From contig NZ_AWXB01000058.1 in assembly GCF_000478985.1 (NCBI RefSeq), positions 1 through 64,000 of the forward strand: DNA of 64,000 nucleotides, given 5' to 3'. Source of the stretch: Peptoniphilus sp. BV3C26 (GTDB lineage Bacteria > Bacillota > Clostridia > Tissierellales > Peptoniphilaceae). Below, piece by piece: positions 25,604-36,554 of this stretch. Numbering within the stretch: the stretch's first letter is position 1; each line of letters begins with the position of its first letter. A program made the position numbers and the translations under genes. The notes beneath the pieces were generated by a model. The model saw nothing but the letters and a program-made list of their open reading frames with translations. It was not told where the DNA came from and ran no database searches.

Positions 25604-26419
25604 TTGAAAAAATATTTTTTATTTTTAATTTCAATTTTTATATTTTTAACAGCCTGCTCAAATCAAGAGATTTCAAAAGAAATGGATGAAAGGGAAAAAA
25701 TTTTTCAATATTTTTCCTCAAGGCCTTCTGCTGAAAAAATTAAAGATTTAAGTGTTGCTTTAAATAAAACAGAACAAATAATGAATTTAAAAGATGATAC
25801 TCTTACTCTTGAGCTTAGTGACCAGGATTATTTTAAAAATTCTTACCAAAATATAAAAGAACTTGTTTATATTTTTTATTTAAATCCCACTATAAACACC
25901 ATTGTTTTAAAAAGTTCAACAGATAAAAGTATTATTGAGAGAAAAACTTTTAAAATATATTTAAGAGAACTATTTTCTCTACCTGTAAATGAGGAAAATT
26001 TTAAAAAACTTACTTATGAGCTTAAAACCATTGATGAAGGTGAGCTTGCAAAAATTAAAATTATAGATGATATAGATGCCTTAATTAAAAACATCTATGG
26101 CACTTCAAAGGGTTTAGATCAGATAAATTATAAGATAATAAAAGATGATATGGAAAAAAATTTATATGTTTTTTATCTTTGCATAAGACTTTCAAACTTT
26201 AATGAAAAACTAGAGGAAAAATCTTATGATAATTTATTTGTAAAATTAAAATTTAGAAAAAAGGCTCTTCTTTCTTATAGTCTTTTTTCAAAAGAAATGT
26301 TAAATCAAGAAGATTTAAAGGATTTAAATATATATAAACTTGCAGAAAATGCCAGTTTTGCAAATTATTACATGAATCTTAACGGCGCAAAAGAATATTT
26401 AAAAAGCATAAAAAAATAA
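25604..26419 (+). CDS. Hypothetical lipoprotein
   Basis: A 271-residue exported lipoprotein of unknown function. It starts with TTG (GGTGA five to six bases upstream) and has a signal peptide MKKYFLFLISIFIFLTACSN with lipobox LTAC, lipidated Cys near residue 18. The mature part is charged and mostly helical, with no motif I recognise; a stretch LSDQDYFKNSYQNIKEL near residue 70 and a C-terminal helix ASFANYYMNLNGAKEYLKS are typical of its style. There is no upstream operon partner. It converges on the deacetylase fusion gene and shares its terminator, so it may be an independent surface protein rather than part of the acylation operon. Confidence 0.8.
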   Translation: MKKYFLFLISIFIFLTACSNQEISKEMDEREKIFQYFSSRPSAEKIKDLSVALNKTEQIMNLKDDTLTLELSDQDYFKNSYQNIKELVYIFYLNPTINTIVLKSSTDKSIIERKTFKIYLRELFSLPVNEENFKKLTYELKTIDEGELAKIKIIDDIDALIKNIYGTSKGLDQINYKIIKDDMEKNLYVFYLCIRLSNFNEKLEEKSYDNLFVKLKFRKKALLSYSLFSKEMLNQEDLKDLNIYKLAENASFANYYMNLNGAKEYLKSIKK

Positions 26420-26441
26420 CCCGAATTTTTCGGGTTATTTT
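26413..26441. terminator. Bidirectional terminator
   Basis: Stem AAAATAACCCGAA/TTCGGGTTATTTT between convergent genes; it overlaps both stop regions. Confidence 0.9.
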
Positions 26442-28213
26442 AATACTTGTTCTAAATCCGTTTCAGGACCTATGTTTATTCTATTCATTGAAAAAGTAGA
26501 CTGTTTTAATCCCTTTAAAATAATATTTTCTCCTTCATTTGTTGTAAATGTAATGTTATATCCCTTTTCTTTTACTATAACATCACTTAAATTATCGTGA
26601 AGACCTAAAGGATATGCCATAGCCTTATAGGGACTCATAAGTCCATTCATCTTTTCTTCAAAATTTTTAATATCATTTTTTAAATAAGAAATATATTCTT
26701 TCTCATCCCCCTGCCTTAAAAGAGATGTGTGAATGTCAGGATTTTCTTTTTCATATTTTTCCACTTGGTGCATATCAAAAGTGTGGGATCCAAATTCCAC
26801 AAGTTTTGAATTTTTCATTTCTTCCATTTGATTTAAATCGTAGTGGGGAATAATTTTTATTCCGCTTTCTTTATAAGTGTCTTTGCCTATGGAAACTCCT
26901 ATGGGAAAATACAAAGCTTTATAATTATACTTTTTTAAAAGGGGATAAACTTTTGTATAGTTACTTTTATAGCCATCGTCAAAAGTTAAAAGAATTGATT
27001 TTTCAGGAAGGGCTTTTCCCTTTTCTACAAAATCATTTATATCTTTTAGACTTATTGTAGTATAATTTTTTTCTTTTATTTTTTCAAAAAGTTCTATAAG
27101 TTTATTTTCATCAATTATTGCAGGATTATTTTTATCTTGCCCTATATGATGGAGCATCAGATTTAAAATTTTACCTTCAAAATTTTCTTTTTTTGCAATT
27201 TGAGGTCTTACATCTTGTCCTTTCTTTACAAAAGTTCCAAAATCTTCAGGAATAAAATGTTCTTTGTCTCCAAATATTTTATATATCATCATATCTCCCA
27301 CATCATTTCTATAGTGGGCGGTATCATAAAAATATCTTGGATCAAGACTTATACTTGAATAAGTAAAATCCCAATAGTCGCTTATTTTATTTAACCTTCT
27401 ATAAAATTCATCAATATCTGTTTTTGGGTAAGCATTAAAGGCAGTTTTATAAAGAGGATACATTATAAGTCTTAATTTAACATTTTTCTCTTGCAAAAAC
27501 TTTACTGTATCTTCTAAGTCTGAAAAAAATTGATCTTTATATTTTGTTTCTATTTTTGCCTTTTCAAATTTAAAATCCGGATATAAATTTAAATAATTTT
27601 CAAGGGAGCCTATATTTTCTGTATCTCTAACTCTTTTGTCATAATTGCCACTATCAGGTATAAATACATCAAATCCCGATGGAATATAAGATTTCTTTTT
27701 TGAAGACTTATACATGTCATAGGCATATCTCATATCTGAAAATAAATAATTTAAGTAAAATTCAAATTTATTTTTACCATCAACTTCAGGCTTCATCTTG
27801 TAGTGAAGATCATTATCCCCTGTATCATAACTTTCAGCAAAAGAAAAAGTAATAGGCAAGACTATTTCTTTTGCACCTCTTTTATTTACCAAATATTTAA
27901 CAGTTTCTTTTACATCCTTCATATCGGCACCATAATAAAAGGCGTTATAATAATTTTTTTTGCCATATTTATTAAAGCTTTGTGTCAAAAGAGGACTTGA
28001 ACCTGATGACCCTACTATATAAGCATCATAATTATCCTTATTATTTAGATAAGTTATTTTTGCAGTTCGAGGATTTCTTGTCATCCTATATGCAAACCAA
28101 CCATCTTTTCTAAAGACTCCAAAGGGGTCCATATAAAAATTTATTGCTCCTATTAAAATAAGAATACTTAAAATTGAAAGTATAACTATTTTAATTTGTT
28201 TTTTAGCTTTCAT
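26435..28213 (-). CDS. SGNH-like domain fused to polysaccharide deacetylase
   Basis: A 592-residue membrane-anchored, two-domain extracytoplasmic protein. The start at 28213 follows AGGAGAAAA; nine codons of upstream frame are ignored. A signal anchor (about residues 7-27) leads to a domain resembling DltD/AlgX-type SGNH esterases: a Ser block IVGSSGSSPLL (about residue 66) and a C-terminal Asp-His block YDTAHYRNDVGDMM (about 300). From about residue 335 follows a NodB-type deacetylase: LLTFDDGYKSN (metal-binding Asp pair), EFGSHTFDMHQ (metal His pair) and MAYPLGLHDN. NodB domains remove N- or O-acetyl groups from wall polysaccharides. It is the last gene of a Dlt-like operon, where canonical operons carry dltD. 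The fusion is unusual. Confidence 0.88.
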   Translation of the reverse strand: MKAKKQIKIVILSILSILILIGAINFYMDPFGVFRKDGWFAYRMTRNPRTAKITYLNNKDNYDAYIVGSSGSSPLLTQSFNKYGKKNYYNAFYYGADMKDVKETVKYLVNKRGAKEIVLPITFSFAESYDTGDNDLHYKMKPEVDGKNKFEFYLNYLFSDMRYAYDMYKSSKKKSYIPSGFDVFIPDSGNYDKRVRDTENIGSLENYLNLYPDFKFEKAKIETKYKDQFFSDLEDTVKFLQEKNVKLRLIMYPLYKTAFNAYPKTDIDEFYRRLNKISDYWDFTYSSISLDPRYFYDTAHYRNDVGDMMIYKIFGDKEHFIPEDFGTFVKKGQDVRPQIAKKENFEGKILNLMLHHIGQDKNNPAIIDENKLIELFEKIKEKNYTTISLKDINDFVEKGKALPEKSILLTFDDGYKSNYTKVYPLLKKYNYKALYFPIGVSIGKDTYKESGIKIIPHYDLNQMEEMKNSKLVEFGSHTFDMHQVEKYEKENPDIHTSLLRQGDEKEYISYLKNDIKNFEEKMNGLMSPYKAMAYPLGLHDNLSDVIVKEKGYNITFTTNEGENIILKGLKQSTFSMNRINIGPETDLEQVLK

Positions 28214-28220
28214 TTTTCTC

Positions 28221-29732
28221 CTAATATTTTTGATATACAAATTCCATTTGAGTTATGTTTGTGCCCATAAGTCCGAAAACAATTGTAAATCCTATTACAA
28301 AGACTAAAAGTAAATATAAACTTACAGGTTTAAGTCTCTTTATCTTTTCGTAAAAATCTCCGTATTTTTCCTTATATATTCCGGCAAAAATCATTATAGT
28401 TATGCCAATAATAAGAACCACATATGAAAGAGGTTTCATGTTCATGGCAGAATAAAAGTTTGCCCAAAAATTTTTTCCGAAATAATTCTTTACAGTATAT
28501 TTAAGCATGATCCAAAGTTCTCTTCCAGTATTTGCCTTAGAAAAATATCTTCCTATGGTGGTAATAAAAATTACCCATAAAATTTTTAAGGAATATTTAA
28601 ATTTATAGGGTAGAGGAAGTTTCTTATCTATGTCTGCTCTTATATTTTCCAAAACAAGAGAAATAGATATAACTATACCATAAAATAAACCGAATAAAAG
28701 AGATATGGTCCTTGCACCATGCCAAGCTCCTATTAAAAGATAAACTACAATAGTTGAAATAAGCAAAGTAAAAATTTTCCCATATTTAGGTCCAAATTTT
28801 TTCCTTGATTTTTTATTTATGTTAGCAAAACTCTTTGAAAGACTCATAGGATAAAATACATATTCTCTCATCCAAGCTCCCAAACTCATGTGCCACCTTC
28901 TCCAATACTCTGCAACTGAATCTGCAAAATAGGGATTATTAAAATTCTCTGCAAGATCAATTCCCAAGATTTTTGAAAAACCCCTAACCATATCTATACC
29001 GCCGGAAAAATCTGCATAAATTTGAATTCCAAAAACAAACATAGCAAAAAATAAAACAGAACCTTGATAAGAAGTGTAAGATTTTACAACATTTCCTATA
29101 GGTTCAACCAATCTATCCGCTATTACGGTTTTCTTCATAATACCAAATAAAATTAAATAAAAACCTCTTACAAGATTTTCATAGTCAAAATTTTTCTTTG
29201 TGTATAAGGTATTTGAAAGTTCATCATATTTATCAATAGGGCCCTGTAAAAGAGCTGGAAAATAACTTACAAAAGTTGCAAATTTAAAAAAATCTTTCTC
29301 AGCATCATATTTACTTCTATAAAGATCAATTAAATATGAAGTTGCCTTGAAAGTGTAAAAAGATATTCCCAGGGGCGGAATAATTGACATAAAATCAAAG
29401 CTTTCAATTTTAAATACTTTTAAAAGTCCCAGATATTTTAAGCCAAAAAGTATTCCAAAATTAATTAAAAGCCCACTTATTAAATATTTTTTTGAATATT
29501 TTTTTCTATCTTTCTTAGGGTAGAGGTCGTTTATTTTTTGTATTTTTACACCTAAAAAATAAATGCTTATACTAGTTATAATAATATAAATTGCCATGGA
29601 TTTTTCCATGACAAAATATAAAACAAGACTTGCCAGAAGTAAAAATAACCACTGGAATTTTTTAAAAATTGTGTAATATAAAACTACAAAAATACTTAAC
29701 CCTAAATAAAGAATGGGATTTGTAAAATTCAA
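28221..29732 (-). CDS. MBOAT family O-acyltransferase (DltB/AlgI-like)
   Basis: A 503-residue polytopic membrane acyltransferase that should pass an acyl group from a carrier across the membrane. About ten to eleven hydrophobic segments are seen. The MBOAT signature region is intact: ADFSGGIDMVRGFS (about residue 240), EYWRRWHMSLGAWMREYVFY (about 275-294) and the catalytic His in LIGAWHGARTISLL (about 338). It starts with TTG at 29732, directly after the TGA of the carrier protein gene, with AGGAG in the 3' end of that gene. At 503 residues it is longer than DltB (about 400) and nearer AlgI in size. The neighbours are a carrier protein and an adenylating enzyme, as in dlt operons. Confidence 0.93.
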   Translation of the reverse strand: MNFTNPILYLGLSIFVVLYYTIFKKFQWLFLLLASLVLYFVMEKSMAIYIIITSISIYFLGVKIQKINDLYPKKDRKKYSKKYLISGLLINFGILFGLKYLGLLKVFKIESFDFMSIIPPLGISFYTFKATSYLIDLYRSKYDAEKDFFKFATFVSYFPALLQGPIDKYDELSNTLYTKKNFDYENLVRGFYLILFGIMKKTVIADRLVEPIGNVVKSYTSYQGSVLFFAMFVFGIQIYADFSGGIDMVRGFSKILGIDLAENFNNPYFADSVAEYWRRWHMSLGAWMREYVFYPMSLSKSFANINKKSRKKFGPKYGKIFTLLISTIVVYLLIGAWHGARTISLLFGLFYGIVISISLVLENIRADIDKKLPLPYKFKYSLKILWVIFITTIGRYFSKANTGRELWIMLKYTVKNYFGKNFWANFYSAMNMKPLSYVVLIIGITIMIFAGIYKEKYGDFYEKIKRLKPVSLYLLLVFVIGFTIVFGLMGTNITQMEFVYQKY

Positions 29733-29978
29733 TCAAGCTCTCCTAAAAAAATGCTCTACAAGTTCTAAAATAGTTTTTGGAGTTTCAAAATTTTCAGGTA
29801 AGATGTCTTCAACTCCTATGTCGATTCCGAATTCATCGTTAAGTTCCAAAATCAAACTTACAGTATCAAAGGAATCTATTACTCCTGATTCAATAAGTTC
29901 AGTATCTTCTTCGATTTCAGCATTAGGATCTGGTGTTACATCCTTTAAAATTTCTATAATTTTGTCTAAATTAGTCAT
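29733..29978 (-). CDS. Acyl/peptidyl carrier protein (DltC-like)
   Basis: An 81-residue carrier protein. The phosphopantetheine-bearing Ser lies in VIDSFDTVSLILELNDEFG (Ser about residue 35), where the usual DSL is DSF. The predicted four-helix acyl carrier fold and a very acidic composition fit. GGAG precedes the ATG, which overlaps the 3' end of the adenylating-enzyme gene by 8 bases. By position it should receive an activated amino acid or other acyl group from that enzyme and present it to the MBOAT protein at the membrane. Being outside a fatty-acid synthesis context argues against a FabD/FabF partner role. Confidence 0.92.
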   Translation of the reverse strand: MTNLDKIIEILKDVTPDPNAEIEEDTELIESGVIDSFDTVSLILELNDEFGIDIGVEDILPENFETPKTILELVEHFFRRA

Positions 29979-31447
29979 TTTTTTCTCCTAAATATTCTTT
30001 TAATTTATTTCTATCTACTTTATTATTTCTATTTAATGGCATTACGTCAAGTCTTATTATTTTTTTTGGCATCATGTGTCTTGGCAATTTATCTTTTAAG
30101 AGCCTAAACATATTTTTTTCATCGATTTGACCTTGATAAAATACGCTTATTAATTCTTTTTCTTTTTCAAATAAAACTCCGCTTATGTCAATTCCTTCTA
30201 AGGCATTAATTCTATTTTCAATTTCTCCAAGTTCTATTCTATATCCTAAGTGTTTTACTTGATTATCCATTCTGCCCTTAAAATAAATTTCCCCATTTTT
30301 TATAAGTCCAAAATCACCCGTTTTATAAAAAATTTCCCTATATTTATTTTGTAGAGGATTTTGAACAAAGGTCATATTTGTTTTTTCAAAATCATCATAA
30401 TAACCTAAGGCAAGTCCTTCTCCTCCAACAAAAATTTGTCCTTCTTCATTTTCTTTACAAGGTTTGTTTTCTTCATCTAAGATATATATTTTAGATCCAG
30501 GAACTTCTTTTCCAGCAGGAATATTTAAAAGATCATCATCTTTTGAAATCTCATGATAAAGACAATTAAAACTTACTTCAGTAGGAGCATAAAGATTGTA
30601 AAATTTTGCCTGAGAATTTTCCATCCAATAAATCGCCGTTCTCTTTGGTAAAATTTCTCCTGAAAACATAACTTTTTTTACGCTTGGTATTTTTTTATAA
30701 GAAAATGCCTTAAAATTTTCCATAATTCTTAAAGCAAAAGTAGACCAAATTAAAACACTTGCTTGAAAATAATTTATAAGATCAAGGATTTTTTTGGGAA
30801 ACATAAAATATTTAGGCGGTATTAGGGCTATAGCTGCAAGGTTATAAATCGACAAAAAAATACTTTTACAGGAAGAATCAAATTCAAAGCTAACTTGATT
30901 TCCAAAAATATCTTCCCTTGTAAAATTAAATTCTTCATTAAAGTTTCTGCACTGATCAATTATAGAGCCGTGACTTTTTAAAACCAGTTTTGGGCTTCCT
31001 GTTGATCCAGATGTAAACATACCAAAAGCAGGGGATGTCCTTATGCTTTTATTTAGAAACTTCATGTCTATTTCTTCATTAGTTTCAATTATCTCTTTTA
31101 TGTCTTTTGAAAAAATTGAACTTTCTTTTGAAGATAAGATGCCTGCAAAGTCGTATCTTTTTATTATTTCTTCAAGTCTTTCTTTGGGAGTTTTGTAATT
31201 AATGGCAACATAATATCCTCCCGCTCCTAAGATGCCCATAAAAGCAAATAAATCATATTCATTGTCATCTATAAGTACAAGAAAGGGTTTCTTTAAATCA
31301 AAGTCTTCTTTGATTAAAAAAATTTGCAACTTTTTTTGCCTTGGACAAATATTCTGCAAAAGTATATTTATTTTTTTCCGTTAAAATTGCGTATTTATCT
31401 TTCGCTTTTTTGTTTGCTTCAACTAATATATCAAATAAATTTTTCAT
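29971..31447 (-). pseudogene. Adenylating enzyme (DltA-like), frameshifted near N-terminus
   Basis: An AMP-binding enzyme gene with one extra base. The 5' part starts at 31447 (MKNLFDILVEANKKAKDKYA) after GAAGGTG and runs to VANFF, where a T7 run on the coding strand (31316-31322) shifts it to a stop. With T6 the frame reads VANFLIKEDFD and continues through the downstream 462-codon frame, giving 491 residues, close to DltA (about 505). Motifs: TSGSTGSPKLV (P-loop-like A3), YNLYAPTEVSFN (A5), FYKTGDFG (A7), GRMDNQVKHLGYRIELGEIE (A8) and the catalytic Lys in NRNNKVDRNKL (A10). The enzyme would adenylate an amino acid and load the adjacent carrier protein. Substrate specificity is not readable with confidence. 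Confidence 0.87.
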
Positions 31448-34769: not shown

Positions 34770-36554
34770 TTATTCTTCAACTTTTTCCTTCATTCGATAA
34801 TATTCCATGTTGTAAAATTCTTGAATTTTCTTGTCTGTTTCCATATCTCCATTTAGACGAAATTGACCATTGACCTTTAAAAAGTGAGGTTTTATAACAT
34901 CTATATTTCTTGTAAAATCACTTAGATATTGATTGTACCAATCTCCCTCATAACCTAACTGTTTAAAAAGATAATTAAACAAAAAGCAAGGATCAAGATC
35001 AGGACCCTGTCCCCTAAAAGCATTTCCAGTTACTTCTTTTGCCTTTTCATTTGCCCAAATAATATAAGGAGTTGAATAATTATTCCAAAATCCATCAACA
35101 GTTGCCAAATTGTCATTTATACCAAAAATTTTAAAAAGTCTGTTTTGCTCTTGCATTGATGGAGAATGATCTCCCCAGAATATTAATACAGTTGGCTCTT
35201 CAACCTGTCTTAAATGATTTATTAAAATCTCAAGTTGATTTGATGTGTCTTCCATAAGATTTAAATAATTGTTGAAATAATTAAAATCTTCTCTTGTATA
35301 ATTATCATTCCAAACTAAAGCTTCATTTTGAGGCCCCTCTTCTTCATTATAAGGGCCATGGCCTTCATAACTTACATTAAAGCTCATATAAGGTCCGTTT
35401 TTTCTGTTCTCGTCAAACTTATCTAAAATAAAATTAAAATATTCCCTATCAAATAAAATGTCATCACTCATTTTGCTGAAGGTGTTTTCCATGTCATAAA
35501 AAGTCCCAAGACCAATGGATTTATAAGCATTTACCCTGTTGTAAAAAGTTCCTACAAAAGGATGGGAGCTTTCAATTTTGTAGCCCTGATCTGTTAAATA
35601 TCTCGCATAAGTTTTTCTTGGTATATCATAGGTCGGCGTGTTTCTATATCCACTTATTACACTGGATTCAGTATAAAAAGTTCCACCTCCAAAAACATTA
35701 ACTATAGTCTGCCCATAAATAGATTCATTTTGTAAATCATGAAAATATTTATAGGGATCGTGGGTAAATTCAAGATTAGAATTTCTATACATATAAAAAT
35801 CCTTAAAGGATTCCAGTTGTATTGCAATAATATTTACTTTTTTCTCATCTGGTATTCCTTTGCTTTTATAAGTTGAATAAATTTCTTCAGCCTTTTTTTC
35901 ATTGAAGTCTTTATATTTATAACCTACCGCAGATTTTATAGAGTGTAAAAAAGGATATACAAAACCCTTTGACTCATAAGAATCAAGGTGTATCCAAAGA
36001 TTTAAATTGCTTTGAGATCCAAGAGATGAGTATACATTCTCATCAAAAATATAAATATTTGTAAAAATAAAAAGCAGGCAAGTTAAAATTATGGATTGTA
36101 AAAATCTGAACCGCCACAGAGCTTTGTTATTTTTAAAAAATTTTATTAAAAATACAAAGAGTACCAAAACTAAGACAAAGCCTATAAGAACTTGCTTGTC
36201 CGGTGCAACTTTATATTTTTTAACCATGGTAAAAGCTTCTTTTATAAATTTAAAGTCTGAAAAATAAAGAGGTTCAGACCTATACAAAACTTTTTTCCCA
36301 TTGGTAAAGGCAAGTAAAAGACTTATAAGGCTTGTTGCTCCGAATCCTATTGTTTCACTTTTAAATAAAAAACTTAAAATTAATACAAAAAGATAAATTG
36401 GAATAAAATTGTATAAAATTATTAAGGGTTCTTTAAAATACGAAAAAAATATTCCATCTTTAAAGCCATAACTTGATATAAACATAACAAATATTGTTAA
36501 AACTAAAGAAGGTAATAATTGTATTAAATATACATTCTTTTTTAATCTATTCAT
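34770..36554 (-). CDS. LTA synthase family phosphoglycerol transferase
   Basis: A 594-residue membrane enzyme of the sulfatase-like LtaS family that transfers glycerol phosphate to a growing teichoic acid-type polymer outside the cell. Five N-terminal membrane segments (to about residue 190) lead to an extracytoplasmic alkaline-phosphatase-like domain: NIIAIQLESFKDF (metal Glu, about 245), GGGTFYTESSV (nucleophile Thr, about 293), a His in YEGHGPYN (about 398) and FWGDHSPSM (Asp/His, about 462). Length is slightly below S. aureus LtaS (646). The start has only a distant GGAG (14 bases upstream). It is monocistronic. The Dlt-like operon 3 kb away might modify its product, but linkage is by proximity only. 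Confidence 0.92.
   Translation of the reverse strand: MNRLKKNVYLIQLLPSLVLTIFVMFISSYGFKDGIFFSYFKEPLIILYNFIPIYLFVLILSFLFKSETIGFGATSLISLLLAFTNGKKVLYRSEPLYFSDFKFIKEAFTMVKKYKVAPDKQVLIGFVLVLVLFVFLIKFFKNNKALWRFRFLQSIILTCLLFIFTNIYIFDENVYSSLGSQSNLNLWIHLDSYESKGFVYPFLHSIKSAVGYKYKDFNEKKAEEIYSTYKSKGIPDEKKVNIIAIQLESFKDFYMYRNSNLEFTHDPYKYFHDLQNESIYGQTIVNVFGGGTFYTESSVISGYRNTPTYDIPRKTYARYLTDQGYKIESSHPFVGTFYNRVNAYKSIGLGTFYDMENTFSKMSDDILFDREYFNFILDKFDENRKNGPYMSFNVSYEGHGPYNEEEGPQNEALVWNDNYTREDFNYFNNYLNLMEDTSNQLEILINHLRQVEEPTVLIFWGDHSPSMQEQNRLFKIFGINDNLATVDGFWNNYSTPYIIWANEKAKEVTGNAFRGQGPDLDPCFLFNYLFKQLGYEGDWYNQYLSDFTRNIDVIKPHFLKVNGQFRLNGDMETDKKIQEFYNMEYYRMKEKVEE

Follow-up and report, generated by a model that had tools for sequence, protein, structure and literature searches.

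A probable carrier-fed envelope acylation operon in Peptoniphilus ends in an SGNH-NodB fusion

The window analyzed here, a stretch of 64,000 nucleotides of Peptoniphilus sp. BV3C26 (contig NZ_AWXB01000058.1), contains a tight minus-strand operon of four genes in the order A-C-B-D, encoding an adenylating enzyme (A), a carrier protein (C), an MBOAT (B) and a membrane-anchored SGNH-NodB fusion (D). Place, order and strand of the genes are as given in an earlier sequence-only reading of this DNA. The Pfam matches are AMP-binding in A (3.2e-40), PP-binding in C (3.2e-10), MBOAT in B (4e-13) and Polysacc_deac_1 in D (1.1e-16). The A and C frames share 8 bases, B starts immediately after C, and 7 bases lie between B and the ATG of D. 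The following elements were located:

31571-31551, minus strand: terminator-like hairpin at the end of the upstream PIN-domain gene, setting the operon apart from that gene
31524-31496, minus strand: promoter-like site 5' of A, TTAAAA-17-TATAAT (10/12), a consensus match only
About 31447-29971, minus strand: the whole A gene, an amino-acid adenylation enzyme in two frames
31447-31298, minus strand: first piece of A, an ATG plus 49 codons and then a stop, similar to the beginning of A in locus L037, where the gene is intact
31359-29971, minus strand: second piece of A, an open reading frame of 462 aa in a different frame with the conserved remainder of A
31316-31322, minus strand: T7 run (A7 on the plus strand) near the point where the two A frames diverge
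29978-29733, minus strand: carrier protein C, 81 aa, with attachment Ser36 (DSFD, codon 29873-29871)
29732-28221, minus strand: MBOAT B, 503 aa from a TTG start, with His338 (codon 28721-28719), a DltB-like core (1-411) and extra C-terminal helices
28241-28224, minus strand: hexapeptide FVYQKY at the C-terminus of the MBOAT, a putative acyl-shuttle motif; Tyr500 is codon 28235-28233
28213-26435, minus strand: D, the SGNH-NodB fusion, 592 aa from its ATG, with one N-terminal helix taken as a membrane anchor
28147-27209, minus strand: SGNH part of D (residues 23-335), with Ser70, Asp297 and His300
27178-26438, minus strand: NodB (CE4) part of D (residues 346-592), with Asp412/Asp413, His477 and His482
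26441-26413, both directions: two-way terminator-like hairpin between D and the convergent gene 25604-26419

Promoter-like sites numbered 39, compared to 32.0 (sd 5.7) in shuffles, and terminator-like hairpins 6, compared to 2.1 (sd 1.6).

The earlier reading missed that A is not continuous from the ATG at 31447, as this frame stops after 49 codons. The frameshift could stem from an error in the assembly or have arisen recently by mutation. As A is frameshifted in the assembly, the acylation line is possibly dead in Peptoniphilus sp. BV3C26. The second piece scored 250.2 bits with TIGR01733 (cut-off 317.4). The first, short piece gave an OmdA match below the cut-off, which was put down to chance. 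In the alignment, the substrate pocket of A starts with D,S,K, whereas canonical DltA enzymes of the same family have D,L,M (2/3) or D,L,I (1/3). Of the 25 distinct A genes compared (alignments without L160 and L161), 24 have the pocket lysine, and an Asp at the amino-group-binding position and a Trp at position 280, counted on the alignment, are conserved together with it. The numbering of the pocket positions (235, 239) is what we take to be that of GrsA; since it is assumed, and since the Trp falls at 280 and not at 278, no amino acid is named for A. The suggested look at the pocket sets A apart from canonical DltA.

The MBOAT aligned with DltB over 381 residues (residues 1-411, Z 27.6), in a fold comparison in which families absent from the list are not thereby ruled out. 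FVYQKY is located beyond this core, on the additional C-terminal helices, and H338, F498 and Y500 are invariant in 24/24 aligned rows. According to the available part of PMC12148441, MBOATs without DltX carry a C-terminal FXYXXF-like tyrosine motif. By analogy, FVYQKY is the MBOAT's own tyrosine shuttle and replaces a separate DltX. The locus thus combines an MBOAT with an invariant His and a putative shuttle Tyr with an adjoining SGNH-fold protein, as is characteristic of MBOAT-SGNH systems. The genome encodes a second MBOAT, whose next gene looks SGNH-like by eye and has no Pfam match; no carrier or ligase was seen in the 3.6 kb listed for that locus.

For D, a structure model was obtained with a pLDDT of 89.7 and a pTM of 0.89. 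Pfam returned no family for the N-terminal half at E up to 0.1, and Foldseek alone matched it weakly (best E among natural proteins 3.5e-3). In the model, this half has a DltD/TesA-like SGNH fold: residues 23-335 aligned with DltD 6o93 over 257 residues (Z 11.4, rmsd 5.4) and residues 61-315 with TesA over 155 residues (Z 12.8). Across the DltD structures Z was 10.6-11.4; several SGNH hydrolases rank slightly higher in the fold list, from which absence does not rule a family out. The C-terminal half matched PgaB (residues 346-592, Z 28.6) and PplD (residues 344-592, Z 25.9, rmsd 2.2), and the Polysacc_deac_1 score of 61.4 bits exceeded the cut-off of 23.1. The Ser and Asp-x-x-His of the SGNH superfamily are kept in 38/39 aligned rows, and the Asp/Asp/His/His set of CE4/NodB, made up of the metal site and the base Asp, in 38/38 fused rows. 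The SGNH fold and the deacetylase domain postulated earlier are hence both borne out. The pTM also suggests a fixed arrangement of the two halves.

To find relatives, a pattern scan with D alone was unsuccessful, and a profile scan retrieved them. Of 130 genomes of the family Peptoniphilaceae, 17, including that of the window, contain a match to nearly all of D, and the operon therefore recurs beyond chance. As it is patchily distributed at this frequency and has decayed in Peptoniphilus lacrimalis, it is dispensable. In total, 41 distinct loci with a D-type SGNH were collected: 26 of the order A-(GNAT)-C-B-D (type I), one decayed, nine of the order B-D-C-FkbH, two with an MBOAT but no carrier found, and three in which no MBOAT was found in the fetched DNA (L144, L145 and L162; L145 lies at a contig edge and has lost the aligned SGNH residues). 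MBOAT genes or remnants thus adjoin the SGNH gene in 38/41 loci, counting the decayed one, which agrees with the proposed co-occurrence of the fusion with MBOAT genes. A carrier gene is present at 35/41 loci, window included. NodB resides on the same chain as the SGNH domain in 39 of 40 assessable loci and is the neighboring gene in the remaining one, L115, where NodB, MBOAT and SGNH are three adjacent separate genes. Two more distant MBOAT-SGNH pairs with weak scores (L146 and L147) were left out of the 41; no NodB was found there, so that MBOAT-SGNH pairs of the wider kind can lack it.

The loader of the carrier differs among these loci. In 23 of the 26 type I loci a GNAT gene lies between A and C; it is absent from the window, L037 and L057, the last of which ends before NodB. 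In the nine B-D-C-FkbH loci, A was not found, and the carrier is followed by an FkbH gene of the glyceryl-carrier type; six of six tested FkbH genes scored above the cut-off and the other three were identified by tblastn. The frame 3961-4998 of L063 was considered for FkbH but is a glycosyltransferase gene; the actual FkbH gene of this locus precedes it and was recovered as two tblastn pieces. NodB thus stays with SGNH for every loader. NodB, SGNH and MBOAT form a constant core, and the loader varies, in many Clostridia. The MBOAT tyrosine motif, the GNAT of most relatives and the FkbH-loaded relatives did not feature in the sequence-only reading.

That reading had called the operon Dlt-like, which holds for its working principle and fails for its membership. 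As in the Dlt pathway, by which Gram-positive bacteria attach D-alanine to the teichoic acids of their walls, an adenylating enzyme, a carrier, an MBOAT with a DltB-like core and a transferase with a DltD-like SGNH fold are encoded in one operon. In contrast to Dlt, the order here is A-C-B-D, the putative shuttle is part of the MBOAT, D is fused to NodB, the pocket of A is unlike that of DltA, and most relatives contain a GNAT. An ordinary Dlt operon is ruled out by the profiles, the pocket and the missing DltX. A divergent D-alanylation operon, in which A would load D-alanine and the fusion would serve as the DltD of this lineage, with the deacetylase as an accessory, we consider rather unlikely. 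The identical enzyme classes speak for it, as do the nearness of the carrier to the DltC profiles (TIGR01688, 48.9 bits, cut-off 52.35; NF003464, 54.2, cut-off 68) and the alignment of DltD over the most residues (227-257) among the listed SGNH structures. Canonical DltD (11/130 genomes) and the fusion (17/130) also share no genome; with a chance probability of 0.20 for zero overlap, however, mutual exclusion is not significant. Against D-alanylation, A reached only 200.8 bits with the DltA profile TIGR01734 (cut-off 559.85) as the 462-aa piece without its N-terminus, a shortfall that in our judgment the missing N-terminus cannot explain. B reached 135.2 bits with the DltB profile TIGR04091 (cut-off 375), and the DltD profile PF04914 matched neither D (E up to 0.1) nor any other protein of the genome. 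The pocket lysine and the GNAT of the type I loci point in the same direction. The operon has no room for a DltX microprotein, whereas separate short DltX frames, ending in FIYENF and FIYSNF, are present in the canonical loci L118 and L119 (none was seen in the stretches printed for canonical L116 and L120). A normal dltABCD operon elsewhere, which would have undermined the earlier proposal, was not found: neither DltD nor another AMP-binding domain turned up in the draft genome. We conclude that this is not a Dlt operon.

From the computed genes, folds, conserved catalytic residues and gene contexts we infer the following pathway, including its reactions, its substrates and the sharing of one acceptor. 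The operon probably encodes an envelope acylation line of the MBOAT-SGNH type that is fed by a carrier and ends in an enzyme with a second function, polysaccharide de-N-acetylation. Judged by the enzyme families, A would activate an alpha-amino acid and load it onto C; this amino acid is probably not D-alanine. The MBOAT would pass the acyl group from the carrier through the membrane to Tyr500 of its own FVYQKY, as in the DltX/PatA mechanism, from where it would move to Ser70 in the SGNH part of D and on to a wall polymer, as for DltD/PatB. On the same polymer, NodB would de-N-acetylate a GlcNAc-type sugar, as the fusion and its conservation suggest. Both the aminoacyl group and de-N-acetylation would raise the positive charge of the wall. 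The loader would be an exchangeable module, either A with or without GNAT or an FkbH enzyme probably supplying glycerate.

It appears quite unlikely that the SGNH and NodB halves serve different polymers and that their fusion merely co-localizes two wall-modifying enzymes. The orphan fusions L144 and L162, with no MBOAT in the fetched DNA, and the pairs L146 and L147, with no NodB found, would fit such an arrangement. However, in three gene contexts and in several families SGNH and NodB are either parts of one chain or neighboring genes, and the fixed arrangement suggested by the model also argues against it. The earlier idea that one chain both deacetylates and acylates one wall polymer, which we infer as well, is strengthened because the pairing survives these three contexts.

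A link between NodB and the GNAT was also considered. In most relatives, the GNAT would add an acetyl group to the amino acid on the carrier; after export and transfer of the acetyl-aminoacyl group, NodB would take this acetyl group off again. The position of the GNAT between A and C in most type I loci and the de-N-acetylase family of NodB are in line with such N-protection. Yet NodB is retained in the window and L037, both without GNAT, in the nine FkbH loci, for which no A and no GNAT could be found, and in L114 and L115, where no carrier was found. CE4 enzymes, moreover, are known to act on sugars, which counts against this scenario, and we regard it as very improbable.

It is also conceivable, though unlikely, that D is an N-acyl exchange enzyme outside the cell: NodB would deacetylate a GlcNAc-type sugar and the SGNH part would acylate the freed amine, directly or through O-to-N migration from a neighboring hydroxyl. 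The carrier-derived acyl group would be aminoacyl here and glyceryl in the FkbH relatives. Nod-factor synthesis offers a precedent, in which NodB is followed by NodA with the carrier NodF, and N-acyl exchange would be its surface counterpart. If true, this would explain both activities on one chain for any loader, and the decorations would be stable amides and not labile esters.

The favored acylation and de-N-acetylation line resembles several known systems in part. With the PatA-PatB type O-acetyltransferases (also AlgI and CcsH/CcsI; the ccs locus has an MBOAT/DHHW pair according to the available part of PMC7710045) it shares an MBOAT with a C-terminal tyrosine motif and an adjoining SGNH partner. 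Such pathways are described as fed by acyl-CoA without a carrier (PMC12148441, as available); in contrast, the present operon has a dedicated carrier, its tyrosine motif ends in Tyr, and its SGNH domain is joined to NodB. The NodB part shares fold, metal-site residues and a PgaB profile match (4.5e-39) with the PgaB/IcaB/PplD branch of CE4, whose member PplD de-N-acetylates the linkage sugar of a wall polymer (PMC8807736, as available). Unlike in PgaB, it lies behind an SGNH domain, and it scored 134.2 bits against a PgaB cut-off of 321.9. PNAG modification was considered because of this likeness and set aside, as TIGR03937 gave 0 matches, that is, no PNAG synthase, in the draft genome, which may be incomplete. 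FkbH-like enzymes are held to produce glyceryl-ACP (PMC7489565, as available). The nine relatives share the FkbH-type gene after the carrier with glyceryl-carrier loading for tetronates and methoxymalonyl-ACP; unlike in polyketide clusters, it stands in an MBOAT-SGNH envelope locus, and the window has none. The qim operon of Streptococcus pyogenes was dropped from the comparison; MBOAT, carrier protein, DltB, SGNH and adenyl do not occur in the available part of PMC13059722. Neither an SGNH-NodB fusion nor an MBOAT-carrier-FkbH operon was found in the open-licence literature as far as available, including PMC9487903, PMC12148441 and PMC7710045, and the words SGNH, DltD and fused are absent from a review of NodB architectures (PMC10967932).

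In the available part of PMC12148441, envelope MBOAT-SGNH systems are divided into two groups: Dlt, which has a carrier and DltX as a separate protein, and systems that have their shuttle built in, use acyl-CoA and lack a carrier. The present operon would break this division by combining a carrier with a putative built-in shuttle. It further suggests that a carrier can be loaded by unlike enzymes, an adenylation enzyme or FkbH, with the outer SGNH-NodB enzyme unchanged, and it predicts undescribed aminoacyl or glyceryl wall decorations along with de-N-acetylation in Peptoniphilus-type anaerobic cocci and other Clostridia. For group A streptococcus, the available part of PMC8807736 reports that de-N-acetylation protects against cationic antimicrobial proteins.

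The genes flanking the operon in six relatives had an unrelated housekeeping look when judged by eye. A link with the LtaS-like gene at 34770-36554 of the window, the sole PF00884 match in the genome, is attractive but was set aside: of the loci searched in the relatives, only that of P. lacrimalis (two records) has a homologue close to the operon, with 24% identity.

The operon lies on the minus strand of the window (31447-26435) and consists of four overlapping or abutting genes, encoding an adenylating enzyme (A), a carrier (C), an MBOAT protein (B) and an SGNH-NodB fusion (D):

31298-31447, minus strand, first piece of A, ATG frame
29971-31359, minus strand, second piece of A, separate ORF in the other frame
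within 31447-26435, minus strand, carrier C, 81 aa
within 31447-26435, minus strand, MBOAT B, 503 aa
within 31447-26435, minus strand, SGNH-NodB fusion D, 592 aa

Because there are terminator-like hairpins at both ends, one at the end of the upstream PIN-domain gene and a two-way one 3' of D, and a promoter-like site precedes A (39 such sites observed vs 32.0, sd 5.7, in shuffles), the four genes seem to make up a single transcription unit. In the draft assembly A is broken by a frameshift and its ATG frame at 31447 stops after 49 codons; C, B and D, unlike A, are all open. The two pieces resemble the start and the remainder of the intact A of the related locus L037, and their frames diverge near a T7 run. 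With 59% identity between the second piece and its L037 counterpart, against 55% for D, A bears no mark of prolonged decay; the break is either an assembly error or a recent loss.

Of 130 Peptoniphilaceae genomes, 17, counting the window's own, had a match to D over almost its full length; 14 others had a NodB-only match. A profile of the SGNH part matched strongly in 21 of 249 Tissierellales genomes (the order), 14 of 391 genomes sampled across the class and 4 of 398 sampled across the phylum; these sets overlap, and weak or partial matches in 2, 3 and 6 further genomes, respectively, were discarded. A scan of named genomes gave 25 loci, including Peptoniphilus duerdenii, Aedoeadaptatus, Anaerosphaera, Fenollaria, Ezakiella and several uncultured Clostridia. 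With duplicates removed by eye, 41 distinct loci were counted, 17 from the family genomes and 24 others. The sequence-only reading had proposed checking whether the fusion co-occurs with MBOAT genes, and it does: an MBOAT adjoins the D-type SGNH in 38 of the 41 loci, including a decayed one, and none was found in the DNA fetched for L144, L145 (contig edge) and L162. Of the 40 assessable loci, 39 have NodB behind SGNH in a single chain, and in the 40th, L115, NodB, MBOAT and SGNH sit side by side as three separate genes; L057 could not be assessed, its DNA ending before NodB, and in L052 the chain is broken by a stop. Two of the discarded weak matches, L146 7991-10626 and L147 6201-8732, are more distant MBOAT-SGNH pairs with tails FLYFNF and FVYNRF, beside which tblastn found neither NodB nor a carrier.

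The gene predicted to charge the carrier, the loader, varies among these loci. Type I loci (26/41) have the order A, C, B, D, and in 23 of them a GNAT-family gene is placed between A and C; it is absent from the window, L037 and L057. GNAT identity was confirmed by Pfam in 3/3 tested cases and assigned by similarity in the others, the match being weak (8e-06) at L143, whose genes are also more widely spaced. Type II loci (9/41: L061, L081, L075, L072, L076, L063, L066, L140 and L141) have the order B, D, C, followed by an FkbH gene, with one extra ORF between D and C in L141. Examples are:

L038, 5350-6144, reverse strand, GNAT gene between A and C
L058, 6377-7156, GNAT gene between A and C
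L061, 10835-12099, type II locus region
L081, 4739-5991, type II locus region

No A was found in the DNA fetched around the nine type II loci, some on short contigs. All six FkbH proteins tested exceeded the TIGR01686 cut-off; the remaining three genes were identified by tblastn, one truncated by the contig end. The FkbH loci suggest glyceryl transfer to the envelope. At two MBOAT-bearing loci, L114 and L115, no carrier was found. The Peptoniphilus lacrimalis locus (L052 7043-9835, also L078) has decayed: A and B survive there as remnants and D is interrupted by a stop; neither carrier nor GNAT was found at L052. A tree built from 36 SGNH parts (L160-L162 left out) separated types II and III, which clustered as one group of 12 (support 100/98), from type I; L145 was the exception and fell with type I. 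Based on this grouping, the loader seems to have been exchanged only rarely during evolution.

In pocket alignments without L160 and L161, all 25 distinct A genes have the Asp that binds the amino group of the substrate, and 24 of the 25 carry a Lys at a pocket position occupied by Met (2/3) or Ile (1/3) in canonical DltA of the same bacterial family. As the Asp is kept and Lys stands where DltA has Met or Ile, the pocket makes D-Ala less likely as the substrate and points to an alpha-amino acid. The window, L037 and L057, the three loci lacking GNAT, share a pocket Asn, the other aligned rows covering the site having Asp; this could reflect a single event within one clade.

An N-terminal SGNH-like region had been proposed for D, and the predicted structure, based on the window protein plus 24 relatives (mean pLDDT 89.7, pTM 0.89), bears this out. 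By structure comparison, residues 23-335 adopt an SGNH fold and residues 346-592 a NodB fold (PgaB Z 28.6, IcaB 26.7, PplD 25.9). The SGNH part aligned to TesA with Z 12.8 over 155 residues and to E. faecalis DltD (6o93) with Z 11.4 over 257 residues (rmsd 5.4); several SGNH hydrolases outscored DltD, and the longest alignments were with DltD entries. Foldseek supported NodB (E down to 6e-16) and gave weak SGNH matches (best natural protein 3.5e-3, DltD 1.1e-2). Of the 39 D proteins aligned (all loci except L052 and L057), 38 conserve Ser70, Asp297 and His300 of the SGNH part; the sole exception, L145, comes from a contig edge and contains a garbled stretch. The NodB residues Asp412, Asp413, His477 and His482 are conserved in all 38 fused rows; the 39th, L115, lies outside this count since its NodB is a separate gene.

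The MBOAT model (pLDDT 85.7) matches DltB over residues 1-411 (Z 27.6, 381 residues) and continues in extra helices ending in FVYQKY, the last three residues at low confidence. His338, Phe498 and Tyr500 are invariant in 24/24 aligned MBOATs. According to PMC12148441, the residue that carries the acyl group in the Dlt pathway is a tyrosine in the FXYXXF motif of the microprotein DltX, and MBOATs lacking DltX have this motif themselves, on two additional C-terminal helices. The window protein fits the latter description, with the last Phe replaced by Tyr. The pathways of DltX-less MBOATs are described there as carrier-free; the window operon has a carrier. Because the operon fails the DltA, DltB and DltD profiles, lacks DltX and has D as a fusion protein, it is of the MBOAT-SGNH kind, outside Dlt. 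Among the open-licence papers searched we came across no account of the SGNH-NodB fusion, nor of an MBOAT-SGNH operon loaded by FkbH. What stands out most is that the NodB-SGNH-MBOAT core stays constant while its loaders are exchangeable, together with the possibility that the fusion enzyme swaps N-acetyl for another N-acyl group.

In the most likely mechanism, A would put an acyl group on C, and the MBOAT would move it across the membrane onto its own tyrosine, from where it would pass to Ser70 of D and then to a wall polymer; the NodB half would take acetyl groups off a sugar in the same polymer. The early steps are drawn from families whose mechanism is known, and we infer one polymer as shared acceptor of both halves of D. 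NodB is retained with SGNH under A plus GNAT, A alone or FkbH; being kept whatever the loader, its target should therefore be the acceptor rather than the acyl group. The NodB protein PplD, which has a closely similar fold, works on a wall-polymer linkage GlcNAc, and this shields group A streptococcus from cationic proteins (PMC8807736). At L144 (6491-9709) an orphan SGNH-NodB gene adjoins, in divergent orientation, a LytR-CpsA-Psr ligase gene, which hints that the substrate is a wall polymer.

A PNAG synthase was not found in the strain's draft genome. It does carry one LtaS-like gene, within the window, and one glycosyltransferase of the WecG/TarA type, so the wall may contain a phosphate-bearing polymer. 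The LtaS-like sulfatase-family gene (34770-36554) lies 3.3 kb upstream of the operon and is the only PF00884 match in the genome; among the relatives' loci searched, a homologue near the operon occurs at one other locus only, that of P. lacrimalis, and is weak. No carrier was noticed beside the second MBOAT of the genome (L053 7476-9870, on contig G000:C57), which has the tail FIYFQF and is followed by a gene without a Pfam match that is SGNH-like by eye. The genome also has two further NodB deacetylase genes, G000:C59:7978-8232 and G000:C21:3145-3843, the latter 30% identical to the NodB half of D.
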